Below are positions 743 through 61,961 of a DNA stretch of 64,000 nucleotides, in pieces. Made by a program: the position numbers and the translations under genes. Within the stretch, counting starts at the first letter, position 1; the number at the start of each line of letters is the position of its first letter. This DNA comes from Periplaneta americana (Eukaryota > Arthropoda > Insecta > Blattodea > Blattidae): positions 157,144,102 through 157,208,101 of the forward strand of contig NC_091132.1 of assembly GCF_040183065.1 (NCBI RefSeq). Direction: 5' to 3'. The notes beneath the pieces were generated by a model. It was given only the letters and a program-made list of their open reading frames with translations, was not told the origin of the DNA and searched no databases.

Positions 743-1724
743 ACACTAATGCCGAATATTTTAGTCAGAAACTTTGTCTTCCTACAATGAATACTGTTCG
801 AGCTTACATGGAATCAGTAGTTTGTGATGTAGCAAACGAAAAGTGTACGTATGTTCAAATATTACTAACAAATATGGAGACTACGATAACTTGGACAAAC
901 GATTAGAAATTATGGAGGAAGATTTAAAGAAACAGGTTACATATAAACAATGGGCACATGCAGATGGAAGAGTATAAGAAATTGAAATCAGTAGTCAAAT
1001 TTCAGAAGATGTGCAAGCATTGAAAAAGCAGACACCAACCCTCCTGATACATTGCTTCATCATGAGGCAACAAAGTGCATTTTTTAATGAAGTAAGTCAA
1101 GCTTCATCTGAAGTATGCTACCAGTGGACTTTTCGAAGAACTATTCCGCTATGTTTCAAAATGAAATACAGGCTGCCCATTGGAATAAGAAGCAAATTAC
1201 AGTTTTCACAGCAGTGGCATGGTTTGGCAACGAACCTTGTAATTATGCCCTGTCGTATGATAAATATGCTGTCTTTGCTTTCTTAGACGAAATTTTTAGA
1301 GACATAAAACTAATCATCCAAATGTGAAATACCTATATGTATTTTCTGCCGCTCAATTCATGGATATATCATTTGTAGAAGAATTTTATGGAATACAACT
1401 GTCCTGGCCTTTTGTTTTCTCCTCGAGCCATGGGAAAGAAGCTGTAGATGGTGTAGGGTTAACTATTAAAAGTCTTATATATACTTGGGTGAAAATAGGA
1501 AAATACACAGTTCAAGATGCACAATCATCTGTCGAATGTGCTGCAACTTCTTCCGTCAAGATAATTTTGATTACAGATGAAACAGTGAAACATCATGATA
1601 TGTTGAACGCGCTTTGAAACAACACAGTGTCCCTTTCAGAGACACAAAAATGCATGACATAATTGGAGTATCTCCATACAAAATCAAATGGAAATATTAC
1701 TCTTACAGCTCTGATGACCATTAA
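3..1724 (+). pseudogene. Decayed transposase-like gene (SHGK / VDGxG family)
   Basis: One protein can be followed through several frames. A basic N-terminal part (3-176; K-R-Y-R-E repeats, then R-K-Y-G-R-E-R-K) is followed by S-P-R-R-H-Y (212-433), a cysteine-bearing part (about 800-960), then VDFSKNYSAMFQNEIQ (from about 1120), V-F-S-x-x-A-Q-F (about 1340) and S-H-G-K-E-A-V-D-G-V-G (about 1426-1460), ending at TAA 1722. These blocks resemble a repeated metazoan protein family with an RNase-H-like acidic layout (VDF, then SDG, then VDG). I recognise the pattern but cannot name the family. In-frame stops (for example near 975), frame changes (about 430, 1115, 1320 and 1617), a missing S-D-G and a GT/GTGC microsatellite inside the reading frame show it is dead. 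The 5' end lies outside the window. A captured host gene family is the alternative. Confidence 0.55.
637..740. repeat. GTGC/GT microsatellite
   Basis: About 100 bp of alternating GTGC and GT units. It interrupts the decayed transposase-like gene, so it expanded inside former coding sequence. Confidence 0.95.
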
Positions 1725-2845
1725 ATGCATTTATGGTGTGTATGTTCAATCTGATTTTTTTACTCTTTGTTTTATTTGTATTTGCATCAATCAACAGTTT
1801 TGGTATTACAACGTTAAATGATTACGTCGTACAATATGCGACATTATAGATCTACTCAATTGTATTATTTTGTTGTTATGAGAGATATGCTAAAGTAATA
1901 TGTGCAGATATAATGTCTATTAATTGTTTAAAACTTTTTTTAAGTAGTTCATTGTTTTATTCAGTTGTTCTTTCCATTCATTACAAGACACATTCAGAAA
2001 ATGTCCCATCTGTTACCTGTATGTCCCGTCTGTTACCCATTTTTAGATAGTTACTCTCAATACACAATTCATATTACACAAAGTTTGAATGCACCCATGA
2101 ATAGCTGTGTACACTCGCAATATTTGGTAATATTGTGGTATTTTTGTATTTCATAGCAGGACAGAGATTGTATGGAGTTTGTGTTCACTGTATATACTGT
2201 GTCATTTTATGTCCCGTCTGTTACCTTTCTTTAAACAGTTATAACTGTTGTCAAATATTTTATAATTTGCTTTTCAACAGAAATAATATCAGCTTATAAC
2301 CTGATGCAGGTATTCTGACTTTTATTTTGTATATTAAATAATTTCCGTACGAAATAAATATATATATTATACTGAACAACTTGTATGATTGTCCCGTCCA
2401 TTACCGTGGAATAACCCTATTATTATTACTATCATCATCATCACCATCAATATTCGATTGTCTTTATAATTTTGTTCAAATTATTGTATACAATATTCAA
2501 ATAAAAATATGAAAAATAGTTTATGTAGGTATCATTTGTTGTTGTCCTGCAGCATCTCACTGCGCTATTTCAAGGACAGTAAGTAGGCCTATGTTGCCCC
2601 AATCTGTCTGATAATTATGATACGCAACTGATTGCGGCTAGTGTTCCTACTGCTCACATGCACTGCAATACTACGGGCATTTTTATGCCTATATTGCTTC
2701 GCAATATCTATGTGAAGAAAAGCATTTCCGTTGGCATTACTGTTTCTGTACGAACTCGACATTCACGTCTAGAAATTAGCCTTAATCTTTCAATCATATG
2801 TTCTGCTTCGTCAGTAAACGGTCATTGACCTTGTAGAAACCTGGC
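1725..2845. other. Gene-free AT-rich stretch with a repeated 15-bp motif
   Basis: No convincing gene. The stretch holds four copies of a motif close to GTCCCGTCTGTTACC at 2003-2017, 2023-2037, 2211-2225 and 2391-2405, all in the same direction, downstream of the decayed transposase-like gene. They may be subterminal sites of that element. A short ATC/ATT-rich run lies near 2410-2450. Confidence 0.6.
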
Positions 2846-27920: not shown

Positions 27921-28559
27921 GGAAAAGTACTCTCATCTAAATCATTTATGTCATCATCCATTACAGTAACATTAAATTCATGATGTACATCATTTACCAT
28001 CTTTCACGTTGAATCATTTACATAGATTTAATTTTGTGATATTAAGATAGTTCCTACTTTGTTCGATCTCATAATTAACTGCAAATAAATTTGTACTCTT
28101 AATTTTGCTTCTGTTTCATAAACCTGCCTGACAGATATGTGGTAATTCCCAGCATTCATTTGATGGTAGTTACCACATGTCTTCCAGGTCATCTGTTTGC
28201 ACTCAACAAGTTAAAAAATAGTTCCTATGCATTATGTTGATCCAATGAAAATAAGTCAAGCAAGACAACTGTTGTGTGACAGAATGACGACTGCCTGACT
28301 GCATACTGAAACCTGTCATTCCTTTGCTCAACCACACAGAAAAGCAAGTCATAAATTCTGTAATATTCTGAGAATTTAGCGTATTGGTTCCTGGTACGTG
28401 TTTTTAGCTGGCTGACTCAATAGCTACTGAGGATACGACAGTACTTAAAGCCCTGAAACTTTTAACTTTTTTTAAGTGTTTTAATAGCCACCTGTAACAT
28501 TTTAGTATTATGCACATTTTAATGATTTAATGGAAAACACTGTTGAATAACGACTAACA

Positions 28560-35000: not shown

Positions 35001-36235
35001 CAGATCAGGTGTCTGTGATGGTATAGCTGCGGAGAAGGAGAGGCTTCTTTTTCTGCTCTTGAAGTCCTTCATTGCCCTAGACGACAATTTATTGAAATAT
35101 GGTAAAACTCTGACGTGTTAAATTGTTAGTCGTTATTCAACAGTGTTTTCCATTAAATCATTAAAATGTGCATAATACTAAAATGTTACAGGTGGCTAGT
35201 AAAACACTTAAAAAAGTTTCAGGGCTTTAAGTACTGTCGTATCCTCAGTAGCTATTGAGTCATCCAGCTAAAAACACGTACCTGGAACCAATACACTAAA
35301 TTCTCAGAATATTACAGTATTCATGACTCGCTTTTCTGTGTGGTTGAGCAAAGGAATGACAGGTTTCGGTATGCAGGCAGTCGTCATTTTATCACATCTT
35401 GCTTGACTTATTTCCATTGGATCAACATAATGCATAGGAACTTTTGTTTAACTTGTTGGGTGCAAACAGATGATCTGGAAGACATGTGGTAACTACCATC
35501 AAATGAGTTTCCATTTTCTCAGGAACCATGATCAAATTTTATGGTGTAGGAGTTGGAGCTACTTGATTGTGGTGTGATGGAATCCTTTATGAATAATTTG
35601 GCTGAAAATGTAATATTTACCATCAAATATTTGAAAAAAAAAACAACAACAATTTTCACTGTACCAGAAACTTTTGTTACACTCTCTAGATCTTTATTCA
35701 TCAGAGTAAAAATTTTAACTGTCGTAAATCTATGCATACTAACCTGTTTATTAGATGCTGACATAACTTCAACAATTATGTTAATAGATCTAAATTTCAC
35801 AGTTACAGCACGAAATATAATTATCTTTCTGAACCAAATATTAGACTGAACAAATCAAACAACTGTTTTAGCTCCATACCAGTTGCTACAATCAATAAAT
35901 TGTCACAACAGATACATATATTGTACATTTTAACACATTTAAAGTCATCTTGCAACATTTGATAATAGAAACCCACTTTTATGATATTAGGATTGTTTTG
36001 AGTGCCACGTAGGTGTGAGGCTGTCAAAATAGAGGGGTAAAATGGCACATTTGAGAAGAGCAGCACTATAGAACATTGGAGTTAAGCATGTTGTTAATGC
36101 CTTGACAGCAGTTTTCAGTTTGGCTTAGATTGTTCACTTGTATTGTTAAGAATTATGTTTGTCCATTTTTGAATCTTGCGTACACAAAACTTCAAAATTT
36201 TAAGACTCTGCATTTTACCCATATATTCAAGAAAC

Positions 36236-50901: not shown

Positions 50902-51950
50902 ATTATTATGATGTACCGAAATATACATGATATTTCCGTGCAGATATTCTGCATCACCATATGATGAAAGATGAATGGAACGAAGAAAATTCTCTCCGAC
51001 ACAGGATTTGAACCCAGATTTTCAGGTCTATCTGCTGATGCTCTGTCCACTAAGCCACACCAGATTCCCATCCTGATGTCGGATTGAATACTCTGTTTAA
51101 GTTCCACGTCTTGGATAGAGCATCAGCACGTAGAGTTGAAAATCTGGGTTCAAAGCCCGGTGCCAGAGAGAATTTTTCTCTGTTCCATTCATCTTTCATC
51201 ATATGATGACGCAGAACATCTGCACGGAAATATATGTACTTCGGTACACCATAATAATATACGATATGCAAATAATCACTTAGTGATATAAGACGGCGCT
51301 TATTCCGTCAGATCACGGCCACTCATAACAAGTGCACCTCTGCACATGTGTGTGGACATGGTCCCACTGTCATACATCTATGACGCAGAGCATAAGGGTA
51401 GGCCACTAGAGGGAACCCAAGAGGTGGAACTTAAACTGAGAGGAATCGATCCGACATTGGGATGGGAATCCGGTGTGGCTTAGTGGTAGAGCATCAGCAC
51501 TTAAAGCTGAAAACCTGGGTTCAAATCCCGGTGCTGGAGAGAATTTTTCTCCGTTCCATTCATCTTTTATCATATGATGACACAGAATATCTGCATGGAA
51601 ATATCATATGTACTTTGGTGCATCATAATAATATATGATACGCGAATAATCACTTAGTGATTTAAGACGGCACTTATTCCGTCGGAACCCAGCCACTTAG
51701 TCACTCATAACGAGTGCACCTCTGCACATGTGTAGACATGGTCCCACTGTCATACATCTATGACACAGTGCATGAGGGTAGGCCACTAGAGGGAACCCAA
51801 GAGGTGGAACTTAAACTGAGAGGATTCGACTCGACATTGGGATGGGAATCCGGTGTGGCTTAGTGGATAGAGCATCAGCATGTAGAGCATCAGGTTGAAA
51901 TCCCGGTGCCGAAGAGAATTTTTCTCCATTCCATTCATCTTTTATCATTG
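50902..51950 (+). mobile_element. tRNA-headed repeat C: one inverted plus three tandem units
   Basis: Three direct units have tRNA-like heads at 51112, 51484 and 51864 (period 372 and 380 bp), each with GGATAGAGCATCAGCA or GGTAGAGCATCAGCA. The first two continue with TTCAAA-CCCGGTGC, GAATTTTTCTC and a body holding ACTTAGTGAT and CTGCACATGTG; the third is damaged and ends soon after its head. An inverted unit (50902-51111) stands head-to-head with the first, giving arms of about 90 bp. The head at 51468-51538 folds like a tRNA (5-bp anticodon and T stems, wobble-rich acceptor) but lacks T before the anticodon. Confidence 0.85.
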
Positions 51951-52954: not shown

Positions 52955-53101
52955 TTTATTTTTTATTTTATTGGGTTATTTTACGACGCTGTATCAACAT
53001 CTAGGTTATTTAGCGTCTGAATGATATGAAGGTGATAATGCCAGTGAAATGAGTTCGGGGTCCAGCACCGAAAGTTACCCAGCATTTGCTCCTATTGGGT
53101 T
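52955..53101 (-). mobile_element. SINE family A copy, head missing
   Basis: The tail and body (TTATTGGGTTATTTTACGAC to CAGCATTTGCTCCTATTGGG) end abruptly at the inverted 5' end of the Penelope-like element, which has replaced the tRNA-like head. Confidence 0.85.
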
Positions 53102-53189
53102 TGTTTGTGTTGTGTTGGGTGGTTGGATGTGTTGTGTATGTGTTTTGTTGTTGTTGGTTTTCTGTAGATTTTGAATACACCCAAAGCTA

Positions 53190-53925
53190 CACTACACATT
53201 AGAAATTGAAAACAACAAATCCATAAATTTTCTAGACATCACAATAACAAAAGTCGACAACAAACACACATTCAAAGTCTACAGAAAACCCACAACAACA
53301 CAGACACAACACATCCAACCACCCAACACAACACAAACAAGCTGCATTCCGAACAATGGTACACAGACTACTCAACATACCAATGAACCAACATGATTAC
53401 AAAGAAGAGCTAAACACAATCAAATACATAGCATAAAGAAACGGATACAACCCCAACATAATAGACAACATAATACGAAACACAAAACATAATCACAAAA
53501 AACATAAAAATACAACAAAAACACAAGAACACAAAAAATACATCACACTAACATACGAAAACAAAAACACACACAAGATTGCAACCTCATTCAAGAAATT
53601 AGATTACAACATCGCATACAGAACAAATAATAGTCTACAAAAACATCTCAACACACAAACAAACAAATACAACCACACAGGTATATACAAACTCAAATGT
53701 AACATCTGCAACAACTTCTATATAGGACAGACAGACAGATCATTTCAAACACGTTACAAAGCACACATCACAGCCATAACAAAATTACAAAACGCCTCCA
53801 CATATGCAGAACACATCACAAATGCTCACGAAACCTACAGAGACATCAACACAGACATGGAAATTCTACACATCGAACCAAAAAGCCAGAAAGTAAACAC
53901 ACTAGAACAATACAAAATATAGTCA
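53190..53925 (+). pseudogene. Penelope-like RT end and GIY-YIG endonuclease
   Basis: This is the C-terminal half of a Penelope-like polyprotein. I-N-F-L-D-I-T-I-T-K and F-K-V-Y-R-K-P-T-T-T (about 53225-53305) are the end of the RT domain. After frame changes come N-G-Y-N-P-N-I-I-D-N-I-I (53440s), Y-I-T-L-T-Y-E-N, T-G-I-Y-K-L-K-C-N-I-C-N-N-F-Y-I-G-Q-T (53677-53733) and Y-A-E-H-I-T, ending K-V-N-T-L-E-Q-Y-K-I and TAG. G-I-Y and Y-I-G with the C-x-x-C between them define the zinc-containing GIY-YIG nuclease of these elements. The RT fingers and palm are absent (5' truncation), and at least one stop (TAA about 53434) and one frame change are present. Inactive. Confidence 0.85.
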
Positions 53926-54052
53926 CACAAAAACACATCCAAATGAAATTCTCAACACAACTCAATTTAAGCATGCAAAGAAATAATTTATTACAGTTGT
54001 ATGAACACTTTTGTAAAATTAAATTAAAATTAATAAAATCAGTTAAAAACCA

Positions 54053-54086
54053 GACATGTTTCGGAGGAATGCTACTCCATCTTCAG
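54053..54086 (-). ncRNA. Hammerhead-like ribozyme core, PLE pair, minus strand
   Basis: Minus strand: CTGAAGA, then helix II GGAG..CTCC with a short loop, then GAAA and CATGTC. CTGANGA and GAAA are the two invariant core strands, and GTC is the classic cleavage triplet. The self-complementary CATG would give helix III in a dimer. Helix I pairing is weak. Confidence 0.65.
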
Positions 54087-54233
54087 AGGCAATACCACGA
54101 CGCTGGTACAGATGTTCGACCGCGTATCGTGGCTTAAAGGAGACACACACACTCTTTGACTCCACATTACATTACACAAACACACCCCCACAGGAAACAA
54201 AACAAAAGGCGCCAACACCAGCAACAACCAGTT

Positions 54234-54266
54234 CTGAAGAAGGCCGATAACAGGCCGAAACATGTT
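54234..54266 (+). ncRNA. Hammerhead-like ribozyme core, PLE pair, plus strand
   Basis: CTGAAGA (54234-54240), helix II GGCC/GGCC around GATAACA, GAAA (54257-54260), then CATGTT. AGTT just upstream of the core can pair with AACT just downstream as helix I. The CATG palindrome again suggests a dimeric form. Confidence 0.7.
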
Positions 54267-55023
54267 AACTAGATACGATAGAATTTAACGCGAGAAAGAC
54301 ATATAATACATATTCCGAAGGAAATATAGTTATTTTCTGATGGTTGCAGTGGCCAACACCATAATTGTACAGTAGACCGGTTTCATAAAAATGTAATAAA
54401 ACTTATCACAACTTTCCAGTGACCGAACATTCAGCTTTGTCCTGTGATTGGAACATCGGTGTTGCAAAGGCGCTTAGGCTATTAGGAGATGAGATCGGAT
54501 CTATATACCTGAAGAATACCATGATTTGATCCGTTCTTCTACATCAAAATTTAAAATCATAAATATAAAGACTGAAGACGTGTGAGACTACAAGACATGA
54601 CAAGATTACAAAAAGAGTGCACTTTCAGTTCAATCAGAAGCAAAAATACCGAAATATACGAAAATATCATTCCAAATTTCAAAATATTTTCATTTTGAAT
54701 ACTATGTACACCTCGCGTGAAAGATCTGAAAGCCTTGAGAGTGTTGAGATTTAAACGGCAGATAATGGTTGCTTGTCTGACGTACATTCCATTTGCAAAA
54801 CATTTCTCTCTTTGTCAGTTAGTCGCTTGTTCGTTATAATATGCGCTTGTATTACATCACGGAAGTATTCAGTTGTAGCATTTTTAAGTGTATGTAATAT
54901 TGTATATAAAAATTGTTTATACAGAGTTAAAGTGCGTGTATATATGGTATTGGCATTTAAATTGTGTATGTCAGTATGTAGATTGCATATAGTTATTTAA
55001 ATCGTGCATATAGAGTTAGAGTG

Positions 55024-55028
<5 letters not shown>

Positions 55029-55090
<62 letters not shown>
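55029..55090. repeat. (AT)n microsatellite
   Basis: About 60 bp of pure AT repeats upstream of the dead transposase gene. Confidence 0.95.
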
Positions 55091-55092
<2 letters not shown>

Positions 55093-55160
55093 CATTTCAA
55101 TTGTGTATATACAGTTAGTTTAAGTATTTATAAGTTGCAAGTAGAGCTGCTGTTACGGTA

Positions 55161-56524
55161 ATGGCTCCAGTTATTTCAAAATTAAAAGGAAAGAAGCTTC
55201 ATAATCAAACTAAAGAGGTTATAAACAATGTACCGTACTCGTGTTTCTGTCTAAGGAAACTTCTCAAGGGACAGACATTCCTCCACATAAAGTTCAACAG
55301 CGAGTGACAGTGGCTACAGGCATGTCTCGTAGTAGTGCCCAAAAAACTGTGGCAGAAGCGAAGAAAACAGATAGTGGTAATGGTATGTGTTTCGAAACGC
55401 CAGTTAAGAAGAGAACAATTAAAAGTGGTGTGTTAGAACTAGACGCGTTTGATGAAAGTGTAGTGCGTAGGATAGTATATGACTTTTACATTACCGAGAA
55501 ATGTGTTCCAACAATCAGCGCATTAAGGATGAAACTGAAAGACGCAATTGGCTTTGATGGGGGCAATACTAGTGTTAGAACTCTACTGAAAAAAACTGGA
55601 ATTTTCTTGGAAGAAAACGAAGACAAATAGATCGTTAGTAGTAGAAAAATACCATATCAGGCAAAAAAGAATAACTATTTGAGGCGAATTTCTAATTATC
55701 GAGCTGAGAGAAGAAATATTGTGTATCTGTATCAGTCATACAGTACATTCTCTCAACCCATCTGTATAGCAAGTCTTGGAGAGACGACTCAGCACATGGT
55801 CTTCTAGCGCCGGTATCAAAGGGACAGCGCCTAATGATACACACTGGAGGTGACCGAGGGTTCGTCCCCAATGCCCTACAAATTTGGAAAGCTCAGCAGA
55901 AATCCGGGGATTATCATTCTCAAATGAATCAAATTAATTAAGAGAAATGGATTCGAGAGAAGCTCATTTCTAATTTGCTCCGAAATTCTGTTGTTGTGTT
56001 TGATAATGCCCTTTATCATAACATTGCATTAAATAGAGCTTCCACTTTAAATTCAACAAAAACTGTAATGAAGGAATGCCTTGAAAAAGAGGGAATTCTC
56101 TACAGTGATGACATGTTGAAACCGACTTTATACGAACTTATACAAATATACAAACCCTCGTCTGTAAAAGTGCCGGGCATATTCCAATTAGACTTCCTCC
56201 TCATCACCCTGAATTAAGCCCGATCAAGAACATTTGGTCAATAGTGAAGGGATGGGTTCCTTCCAGAAACATAAATTGTAAATTAGATTGAGTAAGAGAA
56301 CTATGTGAGCAGAAATTTAACAGTAAGATTGAACTCGATTGGCGTCCACTTTGTGATAATGTTAAAAAAATATAACAAGATATATGGACCAGTAAGTACT
56401 GTTTGGTAACGTCATAGACCCAATTATCATAAATCTCGGTGGTATCAGCGTTGATGACGATGACTGTGATTTCAGCTAGGACGATGAAATGGAAGGGATA
56501 GCAGAGTTTGAAGACTCTGACTAG
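55161..56524 (+). pseudogene. Tc1/mariner-type DDE transposase, near full length, dead
   Basis: ATG 55161 opens M-A-P-V-I-S-K-L-K-G-K-K. After a shift come S-Q-G-T-D-I-P-P-H-K-V-Q-Q-R-V and a helix-turn-helix region with D-E-S-V-V-R-R-I-V-Y-D-F-Y (55241-55630). Then K-G-Q-R-L-M, G-F-V-P-N-A-L-Q-I-W, S-G-D-Y-H, V-V-V-F-D-N-A-L-Y-H-N (second catalytic Asp, about 55996), and L-R-L-P-P-H-H-P-E-L-S-P-I-K-N-I-W (56185-56240). In this superfamily the last motif reads P-I-E-x-I-W; here the catalytic Glu codon is AAG (56226-56228, Lys). An acidic tail (I-S-V-D-D-D-D) follows. Several stops and shifts occur. Inverted ends were not located. Confidence 0.8.
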
Positions 56525-57145: not shown

Positions 57146-57472
57146 AATAATCTGTGTCAATGGCCTATGACAGACCAAAGTGTTACAGTATCAGCGGGTT
57201 TCTTATTCTATGATTCTCATTTTCTGAAGAATATAGACATTTTCCGACCTCTTGCTTTTTCATTGTTGATTTTAACTTAAACATATTTTCTGAGCATAAA
57301 ATATGATTTTGTACAATATAATATGGTTAATTGTCTTCATTTAATTCGAAAAGACCATATCTCCATTTATTAAAACTCTTCTTAGAATGTAGGCTTTCAT
57401 GGCCGGCGTTGATAGGATGGATATTTTTCGAGCTAGAGGCCGTGGTCTGTCGGTGTTACAACCAAATGTTTC

Positions 57473-57499
57473 GTCTGCTACTCCAGTGGACATCTTCAG
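57473..57499 (-). ncRNA. Hammerhead-like core, 57-kb pair, minus strand
   Basis: Minus strand CTGAAGA (57499-57493), a shortened helix II (GTC/GAC), GAAA (57482-57479) and CATTTGG. Helix II has lost pairs compared with its partner. Confidence 0.5.
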
Positions 57500-57753
57500 T
57501 GGCGTGGTACACGTGTGCGGAGAGATCTGCTGTGTGTATCAAGAACTGGCATTGAAACTGGTAGCACACATATCAAACCCTTTCTCCGACAATTAAACAC
57601 TATGACAAACAATCAGAACACCGAAGCCACTGGTGCAGACCGCGGCGACGACAAGCCACAACTGCCCCACACCTTAAATATTGAAGTGCTACCAGTCTCA
57701 ATGTCAGTTCCTGATACATAGAGCAGATCTCTCCGCACATGTGTACAACGCCA

Positions 57754-57790
57754 CTGAAGATGTCCACCAGAGTAGTGGACGAAACATTTG
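57754..57790 (+). ncRNA. Hammerhead-like core, 57-kb pair, plus strand
   Basis: CTGAAGA (57754-57760), helix II GTCCAC/GTGGAC (6 bp) around CAGAGTA, GAAA (57781-57784), CATTTG. ACAAC upstream (57745-57749) and GTTGT downstream (57791-57795) can form helix I. Confidence 0.65.
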
Positions 57791-57850
57791 GTTGTGACAC
57801 CGACAGACCTCGGGCCTCTAGACCGAAAAATACCCATCCTCTTAAAACTG

Positions 57851-58789: not shown

Positions 58790-59310
58790 AATATTAAAGA
58801 TTTTATTAATTTGTCCAACGGAATAATATCTGTAATATTGACAATTAATATTCAAGAAGAAAAATTCGCTCCTGCGCCGGGGATCGAACCCGGGTCCTCG
58901 GTGCCACGTACCAAGCTCTCTGACCAATGAGCTACGCCGAATTCAATCCACAGCACCGGACCGAACTTCCCTCCTTCAATGTTTCCCTTTTGGCCTAACT
59001 CCAAGTTAGGCATATATGTTGAGTTTTATGTCCAAGTGAACTGCCATTATACAAGGGGCGCACTCAGCTGAGTGACTTATTTGGCTGGGATTCCGCAGTT
59101 AAGTGCACAGTAATGTGTACAAAAATATGCACCGCTAGCTATGAGAATATTAAAGATTTTATTAATTTGTCCTACAGAATAATATCTGTAATATTGACAA
59201 TTAATACGAGAAAAATTCTCTCCGGCGCCGGGAATCGAACCAAGGACCCAGGTTCGATCCCTGGCACCGGAGAGAATTTTTCTCCTTAAATATTAATTGT
59301 AAATAGAAAA
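58790..59310 (-). mobile_element. tRNA-headed repeat C, tandem units plus head-to-head hairpin
   Basis: The block ATATTAAAGATTTTATTAAT..GACAATTAATA occurs at about 58793 and 59151 (period about 358 bp). Each is followed by the complement of a tRNA-like head (GCGCCGGG-ATCGAACC). At 59215-59290 two heads face each other across about 9 bp, forming a near-perfect hairpin with arms GAGAAAAATTCTCTCCGGCG. Confidence 0.8.
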
Positions 59311-61162: not shown

Positions 61163-61313
61163 TACATTCTGAAGTCAATGAATGTACGTATATACATTGC
61201 ACAGTCAGTAATAACATATTTTGATGAAAGGGTTTGTCTAGTGTGATCTTACTGTTCACAGTAGAAAAGTTTTCAGGGCTATCAGGCCATGGTCCGTTGG
61301 TTATGTGACCAAA

Positions 61314-61346
61314 CGTTTCGTTCACTGCTGCAGTGAACATCTTCAG
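61314..61346 (-). ncRNA. Hammerhead-like core, 61-kb pair, minus strand
   Basis: Minus strand CTGAAGA (61346-61340), helix II GTTCACTG/CAGTGAAC (8 bp, loop CAG), GAAA (61319-61316), CGTTTGG. ACCA just upstream and TGGT downstream can form helix I. Confidence 0.65.
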
Positions 61347-61422
61347 TGGTGTAGAGTACTGGTGCGGGTCGTTCTACTGCGCGTGCCGTTGACCAGAACC
61401 GCTGCACCAATACTCTACACCA

Positions 61423-61456
61423 CTGAAGATGTTCACCGCAGCAGTGAACTAAATAT
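61423..61456 (+). ncRNA. Hammerhead-like core, 61-kb pair, plus strand (mutated)
   Basis: CTGAAGA (61423-61429), helix II GTTCAC/GTGAAC, then TAAA (61450-61453) in place of the invariant GAAA, so this one is probably inactive. Confidence 0.6.
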
Positions 61457-61961
61457 TTGGTCACACATCCAACAGACCACGGCCTGATGGCCAGGAAAAC
61501 TTTTCTCCTATTGACGCCGGCCGTGAAAGGCTACACTCGAATATTATGGTTCACAATTCTGTCCATTCTTTAGTGAAGGAGTTGGACACAAAAACATGAT
61601 TCATTCTTTCTCCCCATGTAACTAACAGTCAATGTGAAGATGCTACTGAAGAATGGACGAGGATGGAAAAAGAACTATGAAATAGTTTTTGCGATTAGTC
61701 TCTGAAAAGAGTGGTGACATACTATTTGTCCCAAGAAATAGATATGAAATATGTGGCGTTTTGCTAATGGACTGATTTAATAAGAAAAATTCAAATAAAC
61801 AAAATTAACTGCATTTCCTAGAAGGTGCAAACAACAAGTTTAGACACCTACCAAAGGATTAAGTGAGAGTGACCTCCATTGCATACTGTAGTGCCAATTA
61901 GATTAAAACAGGCATGATAAAAATTATCAGTGGGAATGAAGTCAGTAAAATGTACGATTAA

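Follow-up and report, generated by a model that had tools for sequence, protein, structure and literature searches.

Hammerhead-like cores in nested Penelope-like elements of Periplaneta americana and the geometry of head-to-head insertion

Small hammerhead variants of Penelope-like elements (PLEs) reportedly cleave as dimers, according to Lunse, Weinberg and Breaker. Minimal and dimeric hammerheads are mentioned in PLEs in the accessible text of PMC6155905 and PMC6466107 as well. For the element Poseidon PAc of Anolis, the available parts of PMC11167929 describe insertion in vitro from two internal start sites with a tail between them, both target strands being cut and extended, and a hammerhead cleavage that is assisted by protein and not needed for insertion. 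Among Penelope elements of the rotifer Adineta vaga (e.g., Pen2a_Av), the accessible portions of PMC3846280 report inverted pseudo-LTRs (pLTRs), most often head-to-head, with duplications of 8-10 bp, a tail optionally on one of the inverted pLTRs, and one Penelope nested within another in opposite orientation. That source, in which head-to-head pseudo-LTRs tailed on one arm are already on record, proposes antisense self-priming in the same portions and leaves an unspliced sense template open. Finally, the available text of PMC7229834 deals with animal retrozymes, which carry hammerheads of type I.

Two cores from two element families

The window examined here is a stretch of 64,000 nt from the Periplaneta americana genome. 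Searched with the pattern CTGANGAN{8,30}GAAAC, the window gave seven matches (0.62 expected from shuffles), and when CATGT was also required exactly two were left (0.01 expected), one at 54086-54053 on the minus strand and one at 54234-54266 on the plus strand. Read from 54086 down to 54053, the minus core is CTGAAGA-T-GGAG...CTCC-GAAA-CATGT-C, and the plus core is CTGAAGA-A-GGCC...GGCC-GAAA-CATGT-T. The self-complementary ACATGT occurs in both and is followed by C in the minus copy and by T in the plus copy. The preliminary description had placed hammerhead-like cores on both strands at this position, with helix II formed by GGCC/GGCC in one and GGAG/CTCC in the other, and it is borne out on these points; its suggestion that a self-complementary helix III would fit a dimeric hammerhead likewise finds support in the two ACATGT motifs, which lie in PLE pseudo-LTRs. 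Judged from their sequence, the cores appear to represent the minimal hammerhead form with a palindromic helix III, a kind known from PLEs. In the plus core helix I can pair as AGTT/AACT (54230-54233 with 54267-54270). The minus core has lost the first helix-I pair through a change from A to T just before CTGAAGA, it retains 0 contiguous helix-I pairs, and its contiguous helix-II pairs have fallen from 6 to 4. The two cores belong to different repeat families, A and B, and the features of the locus are as follows.

53101..53176, minus strand: short inverted partner of B, the reverse complement of about 53270-53340; its outer end is not at a known reverse transcription (RT) start.
53179..53966, plus strand: left part of a family B PLE, 5'-truncated, with the end of the RT region, the GIY-YIG open reading frame (ORF) and the start of the pseudo-LTR; left border approximate.
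53680..53913, plus strand: GIY-YIG endonuclease domain region within ORF 53437-53922; the translation has GIY...YIG.
53967..54144, minus strand: solo pseudo-LTR copy of family A, spliced; genomic copies with the same borders reach 98% identity.
54053..54086, minus strand: family A hammerhead-like core; predicted cut between 54053 and 54052.
54145..54319, plus strand: right part of the family B pseudo-LTR, up to the short-end position.
54234..54266, plus strand: family B hammerhead-like core with helix II GGCC/GGCC; predicted cut after T54266.

A 501-bp query spanning the feature splits into two repeat sets, one (A) covering 53967-54144 and the other (B) covering 53900-53971 joined directly to 54143-54332. 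The A copy of the window is 178 bp long, with a full 5' end at 54144 and a short, untailed 3' end at 53967. The left part of the B element is matched in pieces by other B copies at 85-96% identity; to the right, B similarity continues weakly from 54319 to 54332, from which the presence of a tail is not evident. The empty site is read through as AACTCAATTTCAGAACACACACACTC or close variants by 14 B arms, in 11 of 12 B loci. As the filter for empty-site arms passed only those without a large insert, the search for A through the sequence retrieved from 12 other B loci is an independent check, and it returned no match. These A-free loci together with the empty sites show that A inserted into B. The junction has lost a few bases, has no target duplication and shares AC at the join. 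The outward-facing pair is thereby a product of nesting, an antisense solo A copy lying in the pseudo-LTR of a family B element.

The preliminary description had taken the outward pair for a single feature beside a GIY-YIG gene, and this part of it is not supported, since the cores come from two families and the other B loci are without A. Nor is there much to recommend a functional version of the idea, in which two ribozymes around a 150-nt spacer would form one unit acting on transcripts of both strands. The cores do lie close together and the conserved letters are kept in both, but each family has its own copies and borders, the stems of the minus copy are worn, and the A-free loci and empty sites come close to refuting it; we consider it extremely improbable. 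The window pair is better described as an accident of nesting, apparently debris of two PLE families in which the inner ribozyme is already worn, and the interest lies in the surrounding population. The window may not be the only place where A and B have met, given that at another locus inverted B-family fragments (L013, 563-680) lie near an A pair (707-1234).

The preliminary description had placed the cores at the end of a PLE. The GIY...YIG motif of ORF 53437-53922 speaks for that label, although profile support is weak: the Pfam GIY-YIG match has an E-value of 0.032, below the cut-off, and the best PDB chain is "Intron-associated endonuclease 1" at an E-value of 0.05. The same ORF shares 43% identity across 151 aligned positions with an ORF of the A-family locus L079 that resembles GIY-YIG and adjoins A exon 1. 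One B copy (L037) encodes YVDD with a weak RVT_1 match (E = 1.7e-4, below the cut-off) in a broken ORF. For neither L037 nor L079 did the GIY-YIG region match the Pfam GIY-YIG profile, an intact ORF joining RT and GIY-YIG was not seen among the copies examined, and an NCBIfam search of the ORFs returned nothing useful. Pseudo-LTRs, head-to-head copies, target duplication and an optional tail, by which PLEs are recognized, were all found. Locus L079 also contains a reverse transcriptase ORF (1283-2419, plus strand; RVT_1, E = 5.8e-25) within the 8 kb that separate A exon 1 from the ribozyme part; it probably belongs to a LINE and is apparently a secondary insertion.

The window holds further matches to the shorter pattern. 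Those at 28427-28459 (plus) and 35216-35248 (minus) have at most one helix-II pair each; they are identical 33-nt CTGAGGATACGACAG...GAAAC matches, inverted and 6.8 kb apart, and are perhaps arms of another repeat. Matches at 57468, 57754 and 61315 represent a further family, with the hairpin present and without CATGT. At 57409-57845 and 61260-61509 lie two inverted-repeat elements, with arms of 128 and 106 nt that are 90% and 88% complementary. Their outward CTGAAGATGT..GAAAC hairpins are core-like, but CATTTGG or CGTTTGG replaces CATGT; they are perhaps a PLE family in which helix III is changed or lost. Within repeated stretches at 50994-51900 and 58869-58941 there are tRNA-like sequences (three Rfam tRNA matches), possibly tRNA-derived SINEs.

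Hammerhead-like cores across the genome

In the 3.23-Gb genome containing the window, the pattern CTGANGAN{12,26}GAAACATGT has 14,275 matches, compared with 67 for the reversed pattern, a count that says nothing on conservation of the palindrome because the pattern itself demanded CATGT. When G12 was changed to C, 227 matches were obtained (56 for the corresponding reversed control), and position 17 is G in 172 of the 14,275 core matches. Pairing in helix II was assessed on 50 distinct segments drawn from the first 100 matches listed: 178 of 200 pairs are standard, compared with 153.7 on average and at most 165 when partners were shuffled, a shuffle that ignores relatedness among the segments. 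This pairing requires one unpaired base after A9; without it, none of the 50 segments has a standard pair 1 and 8 have a standard pair 3. The base is T in 42 segments, A in 7 and C in 1, and such a base between A9 and helix II departs from the textbook hammerhead core. At least three contiguous helix-I pairs are present in 56 of the 64 distinct sequences compared, which stem from few independent families; A and its subfamily A' mainly use GCCA or ACCA with TGGT, and B and similar copies use AGTT with AAC.

Rfam searches had been proposed as a check on the cores. The Rfam 15 hammerhead covariance models gave no match at E-values up to 5 in window positions 53000-55500, yet six loci with relatives, intact ones included, likewise yielded none at E-values up to 10. 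Because the models miss intact relatives too, the absence of a model hit does not decide the matter; it does imply that these cores are not filed under an Rfam family.

Outward-facing is the usual arrangement of cores in this genome. Among the first 100 matches listed (C1, 0-18.3 Mb), neighbors within 5 kb were outward-facing in 21 cases, inward-facing in one and on the same strand in one, where about one neighbor within 2 kb would be expected by chance. The first 100 listed of 867 A-core matches gave 21 outward, 0 inward and 3 same-strand neighbors, the last three all from one tandem array. Such outward pairs are common because these PLEs mostly insert head-to-head.

Ends, flanking repeats and splicing of head-to-head insertions

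A single genome with 14,275 cores offers a direct view of the geometry of PLE insertion. We sampled family A through 27 loci from query matches and 40 test loci, the latter being the first 40 further clusters among the first-listed A-core matches. Fifty-five of these 67 loci are head-to-head and 12 are solo or other. The arms share a 5' end, GTCTCC (GTCTTCC in A'); the first 4 positions of this end contain the starts of 59 of 140 arms, and the start of exon 2 (q43-44) those of a further 15. Their 3' border is either a short end or a long, tailed end 47-48 bp beyond. The tail runs into an open frame in two of five loci examined (L043 and L066).

The outer ends of the A/A' pairs follow a near-strict rule. 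Within the limits set, one end is long and the other short in 49 of 55 pairs (19/22 in the first set and 30/33 in the test set), with the long end on the left in 23 and on the right in 26, and no pair has two equal ends. The remaining six comprise L016 and L067, where tail sequence at both outer ends goes against a strict form of the rule, L011, which ends inside the body, and L046, L087 and L096, which end 11-13 positions off a standard end. In family B, 8 of 12 loci are head-to-head within the fetched stretch, and by our own reading 7 of the 8 have one short and one long end (L031-L035, L038 and L039), counting L035, whose short end is a few bases off, and L033, whose outer short end is a separate fragment; the pair in L036 has one long end and one internal end. 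A third family shows one long and one short end in both of the head-to-head loci examined (L051 and L053). At L028 (896-1941), four tandem A units of period 255 are accompanied by an inverted arm, and the outer ends are still one short and one long. Counts of the two end types per pair were not found in the literature searched, from which subscription papers were largely absent; the count presented here may be new, on slender grounds.

Direct repeats of at least 9 bp, most often 12-13 bp, flank 42 of the 55 A pairs, compared with 7 of 1,082 controls with mismatched flanks and one of the 12 solos; a few of the repeats are simple-sequence repeats, such as TTA runs, and 13 pairs lack a direct repeat of 9 bp. 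Since the repeats surround whole pairs, the usual pair is a single insertion.

The arms also record their template. Exon 1 is followed by an intron border G|GTGAGT in both of the long A copies, and a CAG|TC border precedes the ribozyme part in 11 of 13 arms shown; short copies are without the intron. Some A arms are unspliced. In 23 of 55 pairs splicing is found in arms of both orientations, and sense RNA was thus the template for each. Arm starts at the predicted cut (after q91/92) are not enriched among the 140 arms, where we found single starts at 89, 90 and 96 and none at 91-95; cleaved RNA is therefore not the usual template. Substitutions private to a locus occur in both arms in 10 of 147 cases, compared with 43 of 11,270 in a control that was looser in admitting bases present at no more than 2 loci. 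The comparison is a hint that the two arms stem from one source transcript, although gene conversion within palindromes could have the same effect.

A two-ended insertion model, its rivals and known systems

The explanation we favor, and consider very probable, combines nesting with two-ended, head-to-head PLE insertion and a putative ribozyme that would be complete only as a dimer. Families A and B would each carry their own minimal hammerhead, completed through a palindromic ACAUGU helix III between two molecules. An endonuclease would cut the two target strands about 12 bp apart, and each 3' end would prime reverse transcription at one of two internal start sites on the RNA, namely the far, tailed site for one target end and the near site for its partner. 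Synthesis of the cDNAs would proceed toward the 5' end of a sense RNA that is mostly spliced, and their ends would then be joined; the solo A copy of the window would be a one-sided outcome, without target duplication. The model thus links what can be read in the copies themselves (nesting, pair geometry, flanking direct repeats, two end types and splicing) through presumed priming of both strands, a presumed order of starts and putative ribozyme activity. The wider pattern is real and accords with target-primed reverse transcription from two ends, in which an insertion uses each kind of start site once. A bolder proposal, which we put forward tentatively and regard as possible but somewhat doubtful, is that PLE insertion is two-ended and asymmetric by design, the ends priming on sense RNA at a far and a near start; in its boldest form the palindromic helix III would join two template RNAs, so that the "ribozyme" would mainly be a dimerization device giving rise to outward pairs. 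An asymmetric ribonucleoprotein dimer would explain the far start at one end and the near start at the other.

A published alternative, drawn from the accessible portions of PMC3846280 on rotifer Penelope, traces head-to-head pairs to self-priming on an antisense template rather than to two-ended target priming. The palindromes at inverted junctions and the intron retention reported there would agree with it, as would the unspliced A arms seen here. An antisense template would not, however, give pairs spliced in both orientations at a sense-strand GT/AG intron, and outer ends at two fixed positions with direct repeats around most pairs also argue against it. We regard self-priming as unlikely: the near-strict long/short rule, the repeats around pairs and the splicing in two orientations favor two-ended target priming on sense RNA. 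A little less credible still is the reading of family A as an animal retrozyme, a non-coding circular RNA of 230-255 nt multiplied via type I hammerheads. Its size and the tandem array of L028 would suit this, but the prevalence of inverted pairs (55/67), 5' ends that consist of a fixed start plus a spliced exon and do not cluster at the cleavage site, tails that lead into an open frame, and a GIY-YIG-like ORF beside exon 1 in an A locus led us to reject it.

More weight is due to the view that the cores are sequence relics without catalytic activity, which we nevertheless think improbable. The stems are minimal, an extra base follows A9, Rfam models give no match, insertions derive mostly from uncleaved RNA, and, in the available parts of PMC11167929, the hammerhead of the Anolis PLE cleaved only with protein and was dispensable for insertion in vitro. 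Against this, the core, G12, position 17 and helix-II pairing have been kept over diverged families. To return to two-ended insertion, the usual template would, on these data, be RNA that has not been cleaved, and the purpose of the hammerhead becomes a sharper question for it.

Among the closest known systems are the dimer-cleaving PLE hammerheads reportedly characterized by Lunse, Weinberg and Breaker; the cores described here are putative ribozymes. Like the animal retrozymes in the available text of PMC7229834, family A consists of short repeats with hammerheads, some in tandem, whereas, unlike them, it occurs mostly as head-to-head copies, is spliced and has a link to a GIY-YIG-like ORF. 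Compared with Adineta vaga Penelope as presented in the accessible portions of PMC3846280, a paper that never uses the word "hammerhead", the elements of this genome show a near-strict tail asymmetry across 55 pairs and have many spliced arms. Another close system is Poseidon PAc of Anolis which, in the parts of PMC11167929 available, likewise combines a pLTR bearing a hammerhead, a GIY-YIG ORF, two internal RT starts and an optional tail with cutting and extension of both strands. PAc, as described in those parts, showed no difference in start site between the strands in vitro, whereas most insertions in this genome have one end of each kind.
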